From the NCBI GenBank assembly GCA_013336275.1, contig JAAXUA010000007.1, forward strand, positions 1-51,853: 51,853 nt of DNA, written 5' to 3'. The notes under the pieces are model-generated. The model was not told the DNA's origin. It did not search any database and worked only from the letters and a program-made list of their open reading frames with translations. The DNA comes from Candidatus Falkowbacteria bacterium. Its GTDB lineage: Bacteria > Patescibacteriota > Patescibacteriia > Patescibacteriales > GWE2-39-37. The translations under genes were made by a program, and so were the position numbers. Below are positions 30,757 to 35,819 of this stretch, piece by piece; positions within the stretch are counted from its first letter, which is position 1, and each line of letters begins with the position of its first letter.

Positions 30757-33700
30757 CTATCTTTTGGCGCCGCTGTAGGCGATGGCTCGGACGATATCCC
30801 AATCTGCGGCCAGGGTCGGCGCTTTCTTGAAAATGGCCTTGAAGCTCTTGATGGCCGATTTCTCGCTATTCTGATTGCGGGTGCTCGGGCGCAAGCCGTA
30901 GGCCATGACTTTGACGGCCGCGTCGTCGCGGGCGTTCTTCAGGTCGGGGGTGCGGCCATAAATCTTTTTGAATATCTGGGTAGCATCCTTTTCGGCCTTG
31001 GCGCTAATCTCTTTGGTCCAGCGGCCGTTGCCGATCTTGATCGCATCCATCCAGTCTTCTGTGGTTCTTGGCAAATGGCCGAAGGCCTTGCGGTAAGATG
31101 AGACCGCTCCAGCCCGTTCGCCTGCACCAAGTTTAATAGTGCTGGCTGTGCCTTTGTTGATGAAGTAAGCGATCGAATAGCGTGCATTGGCCGTCAGGCT
31201 CTCGCCCTTAGTAATGCGGTTGTAGATGCTGATTTCGATATCGCTTAATTTCGAAGGACTGGTTTGGCCATAGACTATTGCAGCCTCTGATTGTACGCTG
31301 GCTTCGTATGAAGCGGGAGTGACGGCCGGAGCGGAGGTGCTGGATGCGCTGGCTGGAGCGGTTGTACCGGAAGCCGAAGTGTTTTGGGGCACGACGACCA
31401 TGGTCAGGGCAGCGGAGATGTTGCCGGTCTTGTCTTTGGCGTAGATGTAGTAGAACAATTTTTTTGTCGGGTCGTTGTCTGTTTCTGAGTAGGCGGTTGA
31501 AGTGGCGACGATGGTTATTTTGCCGCCAGTTAATGCAATGCTGTAGGCAGAGGATGTGGCTTCAGTCTCTCTTTTGATTACGACGATTTCTCCCAAGTCG
31601 GCATCGGCGGGGTTCGACCAAGACAGCTTGATATTGCCGTCCTTTCTTTCTGTAGAGACGTATCGAGGCGCGGCTGGAGCGATCGTGTCGGTCACAGCTC
31701 CCCCGCCGCCACCGCCGCCTCCGACTGAAGGGGCAGCCTGGGTGGTGGCTGCTGTCGAGGTTGACTTTGCGGACTCGTTGCCGGCTGCATCATAGGCTGA
31801 TACCTGATAGGTATAAAGCGAGCTGGCGGCCAAACCGGTACTTGAGTAAGTCGAGCCGGTGGTCGAGGCGATCAGAGTGCTATTGCGGTAGACATTGTAA
31901 CCGGTGACGGCGACGTTATCGGTCGAAGTCGCCCAGCTCAGGTTGATCTGGCTCGATGAGATAACTGTTGCTGCCAGGCTGCTTGGAACTGAAGGCGCTT
32001 GCACGTCGGCAGCTGTAGTAGTGGCCGTAGAAGTTGCAGATTTGGCAGAGGTGTTGCCGGCCGCATCGAAAGCCGAAATCTGGTAATTATAGGTAGTACT
32101 GGCGGCCAGGCCGGTGCTGTTGTAGGTTGTGGCCGTAGTAGTAGCGATCTGGGAGTTGTTGCGGAAGACCTTGTAACCGGTGACAGCAACGTTATCGGTC
32201 GAAGTCGCCCAGCTCAGGTTGATCTGGCTAGATGATATCGGGCTGGCAACCAGGCTGGCTGGCACGGTCGGTGCCTGAGTATCAGTGGTTGCAGCCGAGG
32301 AAGTAGCCGATTTGGCCGACTCGTTACCGGAAGTGTCATAAGCCAATACTTGGTAATTATAAGTCGTGCCGTTGGTCAGTCCGGTGTTGCTGAAAGTAGT
32401 CGAAGAAGTGGTGGCGATCAGGACGCTATCGCGATAGATCTTGTAGCCCTCGACCGAGACGTTGTCGGTGGAAGTGGCCCAGCTCAGATCGATCTGCGAG
32501 GCAGAAATAGGGGCGGTTGCCAAACTCTGGGGAACGGACGGGGCGGTTCCGTCAGTCGTGACGAAACTGACCGTCGAAAGCGCTGAAATATTGCCAGCGT
32601 TGTCGGTCGTCTTTATGGCGAAATAATAGGTAGTGTTCGGCAGCAAACCTCCCTGTATCATGGCCTCGTCAGTGGCTGCCGGAGCAGGCGTCGGTTCGCC
32701 AGTCGAGTGAAAGACGTCAGCGTTGTTCCAGTTAGCGTCATCGATCGTAGTGGTGGCGTAGCGCAGGTCGTAGGATGAGGCTGTTCCAAAAGCGCCGTCA
32801 TCGCCTGGGGCCAGCCAGTTCAGTATAACGCTGGTCGGGGTGTCGGGGAAGGATGACAAGGAAACGATCTGTTCCGGTGCTATTGTATCAGGGCCGACCA
32901 AGGCGGCAGTGCCGGAAAGGTTTAAGCGGAAAAGAGTGGCGTTGCCCATGGCGTAGAGTAAAGTCGAGCTTGCCGGGTTGGTGTTGACCATCTTTATCGG
33001 TGTGGCAGCCAGACCGTTGTTGGCGGCTTGCCAATCTTCACCGCCGACGCCGCCGTTGGTGCTGCGGTAGACGCCGGAGCTGCTGGCAGCTACGAAGACG
33101 ATGTTTGTGTCGATGAAGTCATTTTGAATTGATTTCGTATTAAGGGTTGGCAGGTTAAGGTTGGAGGCATCCCAGTTAATGCCGCCATCCATAGTTTTTA
33201 ATACCCCATTGTCGGTTGCCATGAACCCGGACCCGTCCAAGCCATTTATTGGTGCCAGGTCATTTATTGGAGTTGAGGTTGCGTATTTAAAAGTCCAGGT
33301 TTCGGGGTTATTATTAACAGAGAAGACCTCGCTTGAGAAAATTTCGTTGTTTTGAGTTATGGCAAAAATGTTGCCACCAGGAGTCAGCCCCGTAAAATCT
33401 GTCATAATCCTTTTTGTGGAACTAGCCGAAACTTGGATATTGGTATCGCCCAAGTCGTCGCTGCGGTAGACGCCAGTCGGACCGGCGGCATAGATCGAGG
33501 TAGCGGCGGCGTTGAATATGGTTTGGTACAAGTCGAATTTTACATCAGAAGTATTGTCCGAGATCGAGGTGGCGGTCCAGCTGTTTGACCCTAGGGTCGT
33601 GCGATAAACGCCGTTGTTGGTCGCAACGAAAATCGGAGTCGAACCGTCGGCGGTGTAGGCAATACCGTCATAATTCCAGCCGATGGCGATGGCGTTGATG

Positions 33701-33975
33701 GTCGAGCCGCCTAAAGCGGCTGCGCTCCAGCTGGTGCCTTGGTTCGAGCTCAGGTACACGCCTTGGGAAGTTCCAAGATATATATAGTTATCCATCGAGG
33801 CGACCGTGGTGAAGGTTCCGCCGGCACCGGCCGGAGTAACTGCTTCCCAGATATCCTGGGCAGCTAAGGCTGGCCGGATTGATAAAGTTGAAGCGAAAAT
33901 GGCTAATATCAGGCATTTCGCTAGAAGCTTAGTTTTTGCCATACCTTTTTTATTTAGAAAATTAGTGTTGAACAT
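30757..33975 (-). CDS. Large secreted protein: propeller-like N-terminal part, five Fn3 domains, C-terminal triple repeat
   Basis: A 1072-residue surface protein. The signal peptide ends near residue 38. Residues 40-355 contain repeats like VFVATNNGVYRTT, YAAGPTGVYRSDD and VFVAASSSGVYRSTNGG, the pattern of BNR/YCF48-like propellers. Five Fn3-type domains follow, starting near residues 362, 472, 567, 655 and 762. A poly-Gly stretch (about 752-759) precedes the last. Residues 905-1072 hold three copies of a helical repeat (YRKAFGHLPRTTEDW, FKKIYGRTPDLKN, FKAIFKKAPTLAADW). A consensus promoter lies at 34002-34030. The ATG at 33975 has no SD; the ATG at 33942 (MAKTKLLAK) is a good alternative. 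Confidence 0.82.
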   Translation of the reverse strand: MFNTNFLNKKGMAKTKLLAKCLILAIFASTLSIRPALAAQDIWEAVTPAGAGGTFTTVASMDNYIYLGTSQGVYLSSNQGTSWSAAALGGSTINAIAIGWNYDGIAYTADGSTPIFVATNNGVYRTTLGSNSWTATSISDNTSDVKFDLYQTIFNAAATSIYAAGPTGVYRSDDLGDTNIQVSASSTKRIMTDFTGLTPGGNIFAITQNNEIFSSEVFSVNNNPETWTFKYATSTPINDLAPINGLDGSGFMATDNGVLKTMDGGINWDASNLNLPTLNTKSIQNDFIDTNIVFVAASSSGVYRSTNGGVGGEDWQAANNGLAATPIKMVNTNPASSTLLYAMGNATLFRLNLSGTAALVGPDTIAPEQIVSLSSFPDTPTSVILNWLAPGDDGAFGTASSYDLRYATTTIDDANWNNADVFHSTGEPTPAPAATDEAMIQGGLLPNTTYYFAIKTTDNAGNISALSTVSFVTTDGTAPSVPQSLATAPISASQIDLSWATSTDNVSVEGYKIYRDSVLIATTSSTTFSNTGLTNGTTYNYQVLAYDTSGNESAKSATSSAATTDTQAPTVPASLVASPISSSQINLSWATSTDNVAVTGYKVFRNNSQIATTTATTYNSTGLAASTTYNYQISAFDAAGNTSAKSATSTATTTAADVQAPSVPSSLAATVISSSQINLSWATSTDNVAVTGYNVYRNSTLIASTTGSTYSSTGLAASSLYTYQVSAYDAAGNESAKSTSTAATTQAAPSVGGGGGGGGAVTDTIAPAAPRYVSTERKDGNIKLSWSNPADADLGEIVVIKRETEATSSAYSIALTGGKITIVATSTAYSETDNDPTKKLFYYIYAKDKTGNISAALTMVVVPQNTSASGTTAPASASSTSAPAVTPASYEASVQSEAAIVYGQTSPSKLSDIEISIYNRITKGESLTANARYSIAYFINKGTASTIKLGAGERAGAVSSYRKAFGHLPRTTEDWMDAIKIGNGRWTKEISAKAEKDATQIFKKIYGRTPDLKNARDDAAVKVMAYGLRPSTRNQNSEKSAIKSFKAIFKKAPTLAADWDIVRAIAYSGAKR
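31730..32530. repeat. Fn3-coding tandem repeats of about 285 bp
   Basis: Three Fn3 units show high DNA identity. For example the plus-strand stretch starting CGTTATCGGTCGAAGTCGCC near 31915 recurs near 32200 with about 40 identical bases, and a diverged copy lies near 32455. This indicates recent unit duplication within the gene. Confidence 0.75.
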
Positions 33976-34001: not shown

Positions 34002-34030
34002 ATTATATAACAAATATTTTAAAATGTCAA
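34002..34030 (-). promoter_or_regulatory. Perfect consensus promoter of the 1072-residue protein gene
   Basis: On the minus strand TTGACA (34030-34025), 17-base spacer, TATAAT (34007-34002), about 20 nt before the ATG at 33975. It is divergent from the glyS promoter 58 bases away. Confidence 0.85.
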
Positions 34031-34087
34031 TAGGTATAATGTATTTTATGCTTATATTAAACAAAAAATACCCAGAATTAACGGGTG

Positions 34088-34116
34088 TTGACAGAAGGTG
34101 GATAATTAAGTATTAT
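34088..34116 (+). promoter_or_regulatory. Promoter of T-box/glyS transcript
   Basis: TTGACA (34088-34093), 17-base spacer, TATTAT (34111-34116). The predicted start is near 34123, only about 11 nt before the specifier hairpin. Confidence 0.8.
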
Positions 34117-34133
34117 GAACTTACTCAAAAAAC

Positions 34134-34277
34134 CAAAGGGAGATTGGCACCCTTTGTTACAATAGCATATACATCAAAAGAGCTCTAAAGTTACTTTGGA
34201 GAAAGCGGGTGGAACCGCGGGCCCGAGGCTCGTCCCGAACATTCAATCGATTGGATGTTCGGGACGAGCCTTTTTTT
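34134..34277 (+). promoter_or_regulatory. Compact T-box riboswitch controlling glyS
   Basis: A T-box leader senses uncharged tRNA and lets transcription continue into an aminoacyl-tRNA synthetase gene. Visible parts in order: a short hairpin CAAAGGG/CCCTTTG (34134-34140 with 34150-34156) whose 9-nt loop holds GGC (34146-34148), a glycine codon; a stem III-like hairpin of 8 bp (34183-34190 with 34194-34201); the T-box core GGGTGGAACCGCGG (34207-34220) with bulge TGGA, which would pair with the UCCA end of tRNA-Gly (U73); and a 17-bp terminator (34226-34242 with 34255-34271) with seven T. GTCCC in the terminator's 5' arm can pair with the GGG for the antiterminator. glyS starts 148 bases later. 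Stem I is far shorter than usual. Confidence 0.85.
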
Positions 34278-34372
34278 CAACGGCGGGCGAGCCGTTGAGC
34301 TCTCGCCGACTCCGTAAGGACGACGGCGGGCGAGCCGTCGGTTCATCATCAGCTCCGTCAGGAGTGATGATG
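34278..34372 (+). repeat. Tandem hairpins downstream of the T-box terminator
   Basis: Hairpin CAACGGC-GGGCGA-GCCGTTG (34278-34297) recurs as CGACGGC-GGGCGA-GCCGTCG (34321-34340), with the stem change compensated on both sides. Each is followed by a CTCCGT.AGGA hairpin (34311-34320, 34353-34364), the second inside CATCATC/GATGATG (34344-34372). The region lies in the glyS leader between the terminator and the ATG. Confidence 0.7.
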
Positions 34373-34424
34373 GACAGCTTTAAACAGCCATAAACAGCAA
34401 TAATAATCAATTAATTATAAATCT

Positions 34425-35819
34425 ATGGAACAGAAATCAATGGAAAAAGTCGTTTCTTTGTGCAAACGACGCGGTTTCGTCTTTCCCGGTTCGGAAATTT
34501 ACGGCGGCATGGCCAATTCTTGGGATTACGGCCCTTACGGCACCGAATTGAAGAATAATATCGCCAAGGCTTGGTGGAAGACCTTCGTGCAGCTGCGCGA
34601 TGACGTGGTCGGTTTGGATTCGGCCATCATTACCAACCCCAAAGTCTGGGAGGCCTCCGGCCATGTGGCCAACTTCAATGACCCATTGGTCGATTGCAAG
34701 GCTTGCAAGACCCGCCATCGTGGCGACAAGCTGCTCGAGGCGGTGATCGGCGTCGATGAGACGGCTGCCATTCCGTTCGAACAGGTCGGCCAGAAACTGA
34801 ACGAGCTAAAGATCAAGTGTCCTGATTGCGGCAAGTCCGACTGGACCGACGCACGCCGCTTTAACCTGTTGTTCGAGACCAATGTCGGCGTGCTGCAAGA
34901 CGCTAAGAACAAGGCCTATCTGCGCGGTGAGACCGCCCAGGGCATCTTCATCAACTTCAAGAACGTGGTGAACACCATGCGCAAGAAGCTGCCGTTCGGC
35001 ATCGCCCAGGTCGGCAAAGCCTTCCGCAACGAGATCACGCCAGGCAATTTCATCTTCCGCACCCGCGAGTTTGAACAGATGGAGATCGAATATTTCATCA
35101 AGCCGCCGCAGACTGAAGACGAGTGGCGCAAGCCGTTCGAAGAGTGGCAGAACCAGATCAAGAAGTTCTTCGCCGAAGATTTGGGCCTGTCTGACGAGAA
35201 CATGCGCTGGCGCCGCCACGACGAGAACGAGCGCTCGTTCTATTCCAAGGATACTTACGACGTCGAATACAATTATCCGACCTTGGGTTGGGGCGAGCTG
35301 CATGGCTTCGCTTACCGTACCGATTATGATCTGCAGCAGCATATCAAGTATTCCGGCATTGACCTGTCATACACCGACGATGAAGGCAACAAATTCGTGC
35401 CGCACTGCATCGAGCCGTCTTTCGGTTTGACCCGCACGTTGCTGGCCGTTTTGCTCGAAGCCTATAATGAAGAAGAGGTGAAAGAGGGCGATGTGCGCAC
35501 GGTCCTGAAGTTCAAGCCGGCGATCGCGCCGATCAAGGTGGCGGTGTTCCCGTTGCTCAAGAACAAACCGGAGCTGGTAGCCAAGGCGCGCGAAGTCTTT
35601 TCCGGATTGCGCCAAGTCTGGATGTGCGAATTCGATGATAACGGCAACGTGGGCAAGCGGTATCGCCGCCAGGATGAGATCGGCACCCCGTATTGCGTTA
35701 CTATCGACTTCGATACTTTGGAGAAGGGCGTAGTGACGGTACGTGATCGCGACACCATGCAACAGGAGACCGTCAAGGTTGAGGATTTGAAGAGTTATTT
35801 GGCAGCAAAATTGATATAA
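34425..35819 (+). CDS. glyS: Glycyl-tRNA synthetase, single-subunit type
   Basis: A class II synthetase of 464 residues, the alpha2 (eukaryote/archaea-like) form. Signatures: RRGFVFPGSEIYGG near residues 13-26, WDYGPYG near 33-39, zinc-type CKACKTRHRG and CPDCGK near 89-137, motif 2 FRNEITPGNFIFRTREFEQME near 197, split here as FRNEITPGNF and REFEQMEIEYF, and motif 3 PSFGLTRTLLAVL near 333-345. The anticodon-binding domain follows near 370-460. No SD site; the ATG at 34440 is an alternative start. It is expressed from the promoter at 34088 through the T-box. Confidence 0.95.
   Translation: MEQKSMEKVVSLCKRRGFVFPGSEIYGGMANSWDYGPYGTELKNNIAKAWWKTFVQLRDDVVGLDSAIITNPKVWEASGHVANFNDPLVDCKACKTRHRGDKLLEAVIGVDETAAIPFEQVGQKLNELKIKCPDCGKSDWTDARRFNLLFETNVGVLQDAKNKAYLRGETAQGIFINFKNVVNTMRKKLPFGIAQVGKAFRNEITPGNFIFRTREFEQMEIEYFIKPPQTEDEWRKPFEEWQNQIKKFFAEDLGLSDENMRWRRHDENERSFYSKDTYDVEYNYPTLGWGELHGFAYRTDYDLQQHIKYSGIDLSYTDDEGNKFVPHCIEPSFGLTRTLLAVLLEAYNEEEVKEGDVRTVLKFKPAIAPIKVAVFPLLKNKPELVAKAREVFSGLRQVWMCEFDDNGNVGKRYRRQDEIGTPYCVTIDFDTLEKGVVTVRDRDTMQQETVKVEDLKSYLAAKLI

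Follow-up and report, generated by a model that had tools for sequence, protein, structure and literature searches.

A T-box-like glyS leader in a Candidatus Falkowbacteria genome with a single apical-loop codon hairpin in the place of Stem I

The 51,853-nt stretch of DNA analysed here, referred to in the following as the window, comes from a Candidatus Falkowbacteria genome (contig JAAXUA010000007.1). Upstream of glyS it carries an element that we interpret as a T-box riboswitch in which just two modules are left, a codon hairpin and a switch. We put the probability of this reading at roughly 0.86; no experiment has been done, and tRNA binding and the dependence on charging are inferred. In the proposed mechanism, RNA polymerase would start ≈10 nt ahead of a small hairpin whose loop displays GGC as part of UUGGC. 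tRNA-Gly(GCC) would then kiss this loop with its anticodon loop, forming 4 bp in the case of the organism's own tRNA and 5 bp in most relatives, and a flexible linker would allow the 3′ end of the tRNA to contact the bulge of the antiterminator. There, UGGA would pair with U73-CCA of uncharged tRNA, holding the antiterminator and giving readthrough into glyS. Charged glycyl-tRNA would be unable to dock, and the stronger terminator would form, switching glyS off.

Promoter and start of the leader

The leader is preceded by a sigma-70-type promoter, TTGACA-17-TATTAT, at 34088–34116 (+ strand), which matches at 11 of 12 positions and lies where the original prediction had a consensus promoter. 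The predicted transcription start at ≈34122–34124 is about 10–11 nt ahead of the hairpin. Equivalent promoters, with at least 10 of 12 matches inside the 80 nt upstream, were found in 22 of 29 related leaders, where dinucleotide shuffles gave 1.37 on average and 4 at most, and twelve of the 29 leaders have a perfect 12/12 promoter. All of these promoters and start sites are predictions. In the seven leaders in which the hairpin is bare, the −10 element ends 6 nt (L044 and L054), 9 nt (L045 and L053), 15 nt (L057), 17 nt (the window) or 20 nt (L051) ahead of it, which leaves no room for a long Stem I. The promoters of L044 and L045 match at 11 of 12 positions; those of L051 and L054 are weaker (9/12). 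In L044, the intrinsic terminator of the preceding gene directly adjoins the −35 element and the predicted transcript begins at the hairpin. These spacings agree with the original claim that Stem I is nothing more than a codon-bearing hairpin ≈11 nt after the start, and together with the L044 terminator they run counter to a 5′ end far upstream, which would have refuted that claim.

The same positions decide against an ordinary class II glycine T-box with its full Stem I further upstream, which would make the promoter at 34088 a coincidence and the GGC hairpin merely a part of the stem. Infernal does align the entire 219-position Rfam T-box model (RF00230) to 34020–34240, with 42.6 bits and an E-value of 4e-8, but the gathering score of 93 is not reached. 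Only the 3′ discriminator half of this alignment is good, whereas the Stem I half lies over the promoter and contains many non-pairs. A divergent 12/12 promoter at 34030–34002, pointing in the opposite direction, is a further argument against an upstream stem. In view of the promoter positions in L044 and L045, the terminator abutting the −35 element in L044 and the poor pairing, a longer upstream Stem I was dismissed as very unlikely. The divergent promoter (34002–34030, −) faces a gene at 30757–33975 (−) whose 1072-aa product contains fibronectin type III and Ig-like repeats and is probably a surface protein.

We also considered attenuation by a leader peptide, since an in-frame ATG at the −10 element reads MNLLKKPKGDWHPLLQ-stop across the hairpin. 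This frame is indeed open here, but because the ATG sits in the −10 element, ahead of the predicted start, this explanation was rejected and is given practically no weight. The frame contains only one Gly codon, there is no room for it in L044, where the predicted transcript begins at the hairpin, and it would leave the T-box core and stem III unexplained.

The specifier hairpin

In our interpretation, the whole of Stem I is a 23-nt hairpin at 34134–34156 (+), identified from sequence, fold and covariation, with 7-bp arms CAAAGGG (34134–34140) and CCCTTTG (34150–34156) and a 9-nt loop, AGATTGGCA (34141–34149). The specifier GGC (Gly) is found at 34146–34148 (+) within the apical loop AGAUUGGCA and is the complement of the anticodon GCC in the tRNA-Gly genes; stem and triplet are both where the original prediction had placed them. 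The 5′ part of the leader alone did not have a folding energy above that of shuffles (z = −0.5), and because this part is not unusually stable, the significance of the hairpin rests on comparison and not on energy. In a gapless alignment of 16 sequences, the covariation score of the hairpin stem was 0.617, compared with 0.244 ± 0.044 for shuffles. Both sides had changed in 26 cells (11.3 in shuffles), 83% of the cells were paired (63%), and every covariation measure dropped when the stem partners were slid by 1–3 columns. A lack of covariation in the specifier hairpin, named beforehand as an outcome that would refute the proposal, was therefore not what we observed.

The loop sequence GAUUGGC is near-invariant, with a single leader (L055) having GGA instead of GGC. 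That genome encodes tRNA-Gly(UCC), in line with GGA, which is still a glycine codon. The L055 leader runs to the end of its contig, so that the downstream glyS is out of view there; a C-terminal GlyS fragment was found where another contig of this genome ends. Loop conservation in the glyS set is biased upward, because the patterns and the model used for part of the gathering contain the motif. The thrS leaders had not been selected on their loops, and the model was never trained on them. They carry ACC in the hairpin loop in 19 of 19 cases and GGC in 3 of 19, from which we conclude that the triplet tracks the downstream gene: as far as sequences can tell, it is GGC or GGA for glyS and ACC for thrS.

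This correspondence bears on the possibility that the element is a T-box-derived attenuator blind to the codon, in which the hairpin stabilises the 5′ end or serves as a protein site and the acceptor end alone, or something else, brings about switching. Such an attenuator would be compatible with the absence of a known affinity module around the hairpin and with a 5′ part that folds no better than shuffles, but not readily with a triplet that matches the downstream synthetase (GGC/GGA for glyS, ACC for thrS) while the stem around it drifts with compensation. We consider it unlikely.

Match to tRNA-Gly

The ligand of the reduced T-box is inferred to be tRNA-Gly from the codon, the discriminator and the gene. 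The tRNA-Gly genes, which start with GCGGGTATCG, were missed by a stringent pattern and recovered by looser ones. They end in U73, to which the UGGA of the bulge is complementary, as had been anticipated for TGGA in the original prediction. The loop sequence UUGGC (34144–34148) extends the match on the other side, since it also complements tRNA positions 37–38 in most relatives, giving 5 bp with GCCAA. The organism's own tRNA-Gly(GCC) has U38, with the anticodon loop UUGCCAU, and forms only 4 bp. In L051, the loop is UCGGC, facing a CCAA tRNA, and the U-A37 pair is broken. The 5-bp UUGGC/GCCAA extension is thus not universal, and no covariation was found in it; the tRNA loop is too uniform to reveal any. 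A 5-bp loop–loop contact could stand in for the lost contacts, but this is offered as an idea only. In one genome (L036:1560–1656), the second of two tRNA-Gly(GCC) copies, which lies ≈40 nt past the other, is interrupted near the D-arm by a 20-nt palindrome, CCTGCCTGCCGGCAGGCAGG, and is either broken or carries an insert that is processed.

Linker, stem III and the switch

The specifier hairpin is followed by a 26-nt linker at 34157–34182 (+), in which no helix was predicted and which takes the place of Stem II and Stem IIA/B. It ends in the purine string AAAAGAG. Stem III, at 34183–34201 (+), was assigned from sequence and fold as an 8-bp hairpin with the loop UUA and arms CTCTAAAG and CTTTGGAG; this is the stem III-like hairpin of the original prediction, and a hairpin occupies the same place in relatives.

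The T-box antiterminator spans 34206–34237 (+) in the RF00230 alignment and consists of helix A1 (CGGG/CCCG), helix A2 (GCG/CGU) and the bulge UGGAACC. In the DNA, CGGG is at 34206–34209, the bulge at 34210–34216, followed by GCG, and CGT CCCG at 34231–34237, so that the T-box core with a TGGA bulge noted from the sequence proved to be a complete antiterminator with the bulge TGGAACC. Helix A1 covaries, with CGGG/CCCG, CUAGA/UCUAG and UGGG/CCCA among its variants, and A1 strands pair with their own partners over 5.66 bp, compared with 4.09 bp for the partners of others. An intrinsic terminator at 34225–34277 (+), predicted by folding, is composed of a 22-bp stem (34225–34272) and a T7 tract (34271–34277); the T7 had been correctly identified, but the stem had been given as 17 bp. 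Leader and terminator together fold far better than shuffles (z = −6.4), an excess for which the terminator accounts. The antiterminator and terminator folds are mutually exclusive, because the 5′ arm of the terminator contains the 3′ strand of the antiterminator. With the A1 covariation and this strand overlap, the predicted antiterminator/terminator switch is well supported.

The regulated gene begins 148 nt past the terminator. The ORF at 34425–35819 (+) encodes a 464-aa glycine–tRNA ligase (NCBIfam NF003211, 650 bits; TIGR00389, 531 bits), which bears out the original assignment as glyS. Between terminator and gene, positions 34278–34375 are occupied by GC-rich palindromic repeats of the GGCGGGCGAGCC type, and other GC-rich palindromes are present inside two further T-box leaders of the same genome (L001 and L003).

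An element similar to the class III T-boxes, with its Stem II hidden or provided in trans, would also have its specifier in an apical loop, and there are CPR ileS leaders (L315 and L324) in which an AUC hexaloop is followed by Stem II-like sequence. In the window and its two nearest relatives, however, the linkers are only 17–26 nt long (17 nt in L044 and L045), which leaves no space for Stem II, and a strong terminator stands in place of a translational sequester. We therefore regard a class III-like element as a slim chance at best, and retain the reading of a reduced, transcriptional T-box without Stem II.

Related leaders in Patescibacteria

Starting from GlyS homologues, we found the leader again within the genus (L006/L044), the family (L008/L045) and the order (L024/L048 and L034/L047). 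The same-genus relative is a Candidatus Falkowbacteria, consistent with the CPR origin that had been presumed. A covariance model (R1) was built from five leaders in the majority stem III register and used solely to find relatives. At the level of the order, this model detected T-boxes in 69 of 111 genomes; the figures were 84 of 381 for the class and 33 of 380 for a sample of the phylum. These numbers include other T-boxes, notably those of thrS. At least 28 further leaders have the same apical-loop specifier, making 29 with the window. In three of them (L052, L057 and L058), one open reading frame separates the leader from glyS. The distribution was obtained from a genome-wide pattern scan and is a lower bound. 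Among the matches listed, all hairpin-supported leaders with a named phylum belong to the Patescibacteria/CPR (Falkowbacteria, Nealsonbacteria and Parcubacteria), and the combination of this hairpin with a glyS reading frame was confined to Patescibacteria and to contigs labelled simply as bacterial. Pattern matches in Firmicutes, proteobacteria and others mostly lacked a stem around GATTGGC and were discarded as chance.

The leaders were assigned to three grades of form by constrained folding and inspection, and the grades are thus judgements made on predicted folds. The bare hairpin occurs in the window and in L044, L045, L051, L053, L054 and L057; no K-turn, elbow-binding motif or Stem II was found in any of these seven. 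In most leaders, the hairpin either sits atop an additional helix bearing a 3′ bulge or forms one arm of a three-way junction. Four leaders (L168, L280, L284 and L285) have a base like the K-turn of a canonical Stem I, GAUGA...GGAGCU, and a K-turn-like base is also found in the farther relatives L301, L303, L307 and L314. In an unrooted GlyS tree, the bare form makes up a fully supported group of four (the window, L044, L045 and L057), with L051 and L054 as isolated bare rows; three changes are required. The simplest reading is that K-turn and outer helix were lost repeatedly, subject to the tree being unrooted and the grades predicted. The order does include canonical long T-boxes that exceed the Rfam cut-off (L290 and L291, 109 bits). 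Of the three T-boxes that lie within ≈8 kb in the L291 region (G034:C17:10158–18186, −), two are canonical, full-length and above the cut-off.

Comparison with known T-boxes

Four T-box classes have been named (PMC10482949). The window element meets three of the general criteria for a T-box, with a UGGNACC bulge antiterminator opposed to a terminator, a gene-matched specifier in Stem I and a discriminator match. Stem III, the purine string and the antiterminator align to RF00230, whereas the Stem I and Stem II positions of that model are absent. With class II glycine T-boxes of the Bacillus subtilis glyQS type it shares GGC for tRNA-Gly(GCC), a linker in place of Stem II, stem III and the antiterminator/terminator switch, but the class II Stem I is long, with a K-turn, an internal-loop specifier and an elbow-binding double T-loop, and that of the window element is one apical-loop hairpin. 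With class III (ileS of Nocardia farcinica and Mycobacterium) it shares a short Stem I without the elbow-binding motif and an apical-loop specifier. Class III elements, however, are ileS leaders, mostly translational, with loops of 5–6 nt and a requirement for K-turn and Stem II, whereas the window element has a 9-nt loop, is specific for glycine, acts on transcription and has neither K-turn nor Stem II. Class IV has an intermediate Stem I with a side-bulge specifier, and a Stem II, unlike the single hairpin and apical loop of the window element. No published class fits, because features are shared with classes II and III while other defining ones fail, and the window element is thus a transcription-attenuating T-box outside all four, with tRNA binding and switching inferred.

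A transcriptional glycine version in a CPR genome had been expected to be new. This holds for the combination, but not for the apical-loop specifier itself, which has already been published for class III ileS leaders (PMC10482949); nor is the form confined to one CPR genome, as members of the same family are spread more widely among CPR bacteria and include thrS leaders. What is new is that an apical-loop specifier for glycine goes together with transcription attenuation in the absence of both Stem II and K-turn. A literature search joining T-box with Patescibacteria or CPR returned nothing relevant, but subscription papers were outside its scope and priority is unproven. We think it probable that the leaders represent a fifth, CPR-wide architecture of transcriptional T-boxes, in which one apical-loop hairpin with 4–5 bp of kissing makes up the entire tRNA-selecting domain, without K-turn, elbow motif or Stem II, and which arose from K-turn-bearing forms by stepwise loss, probably more than once.

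According to a review, transcriptional T-boxes generally require a long Stem I with an elbow-binding motif (PMC7583486), and for this reason weak binding is a concern: a bare hairpin may be too weak a binder if neither tRNA levels nor helper proteins make up for it. The same review raises the question of whether a T-box works without a K-turn. That K-turn, elbow contact and Stem II are dispensable here is inferred, and the window element provides a testable case of how little RNA a T-box needs. Measuring only ≈115 nt up to the antiterminator, the element could be synthesised directly and tested in vitro as a minimal tRNA sensor. Since the T-boxes of nearly every genome in the order miss the Rfam cut-off (any RF00230 match exceeded the gathering score in just 2 of 109), our results suggest that they are common yet under-annotated in CPR bacteria. 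TBDB was built on two models, the Rfam model and one for Actinobacteria, and these are expected to miss the bare-hairpin form.

Other T-boxes in CPR genomes

The CPR thrS T-boxes come from the same taxa as the window element and have the same discriminator domain and an apical-loop specifier (ACC), usually in a 7-nt loop, CYACCAA. They differ in that extra helices surround their specifier hairpin; only glycine specifiers were seen in the bare form. The window's own genome has a second reduced T-box, on contig C4 (L003:1501–1675, −), before thrS (TIGR00418), with ACC in the loop CTACCAA. Two longer, divergent T-boxes with TGGTACC bulges lie ≈140 bases apart on contig C5 (L001:1501–1673, +, and L004:1501–1736, −), preceding proteins of 137 and 267 aa, neither of which had a Pfam or NCBIfam match. 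The two leaders before IleS-like frames (L315 and L324, ≈1430–1560, oriented), whose hexanucleotide apical loop contains AUC, have a K-turn-like base, Stem II-like sequence and an apparent transcription terminator; apparently, this is the class III architecture used transcriptionally. Eight thrS leaders (L275, L277, L279, L281, L282, L286, L287 and L289) have GATTG just 5′ of the specifier hairpin, often together with CTAAGC on its 3′ side, forming a conserved junction.
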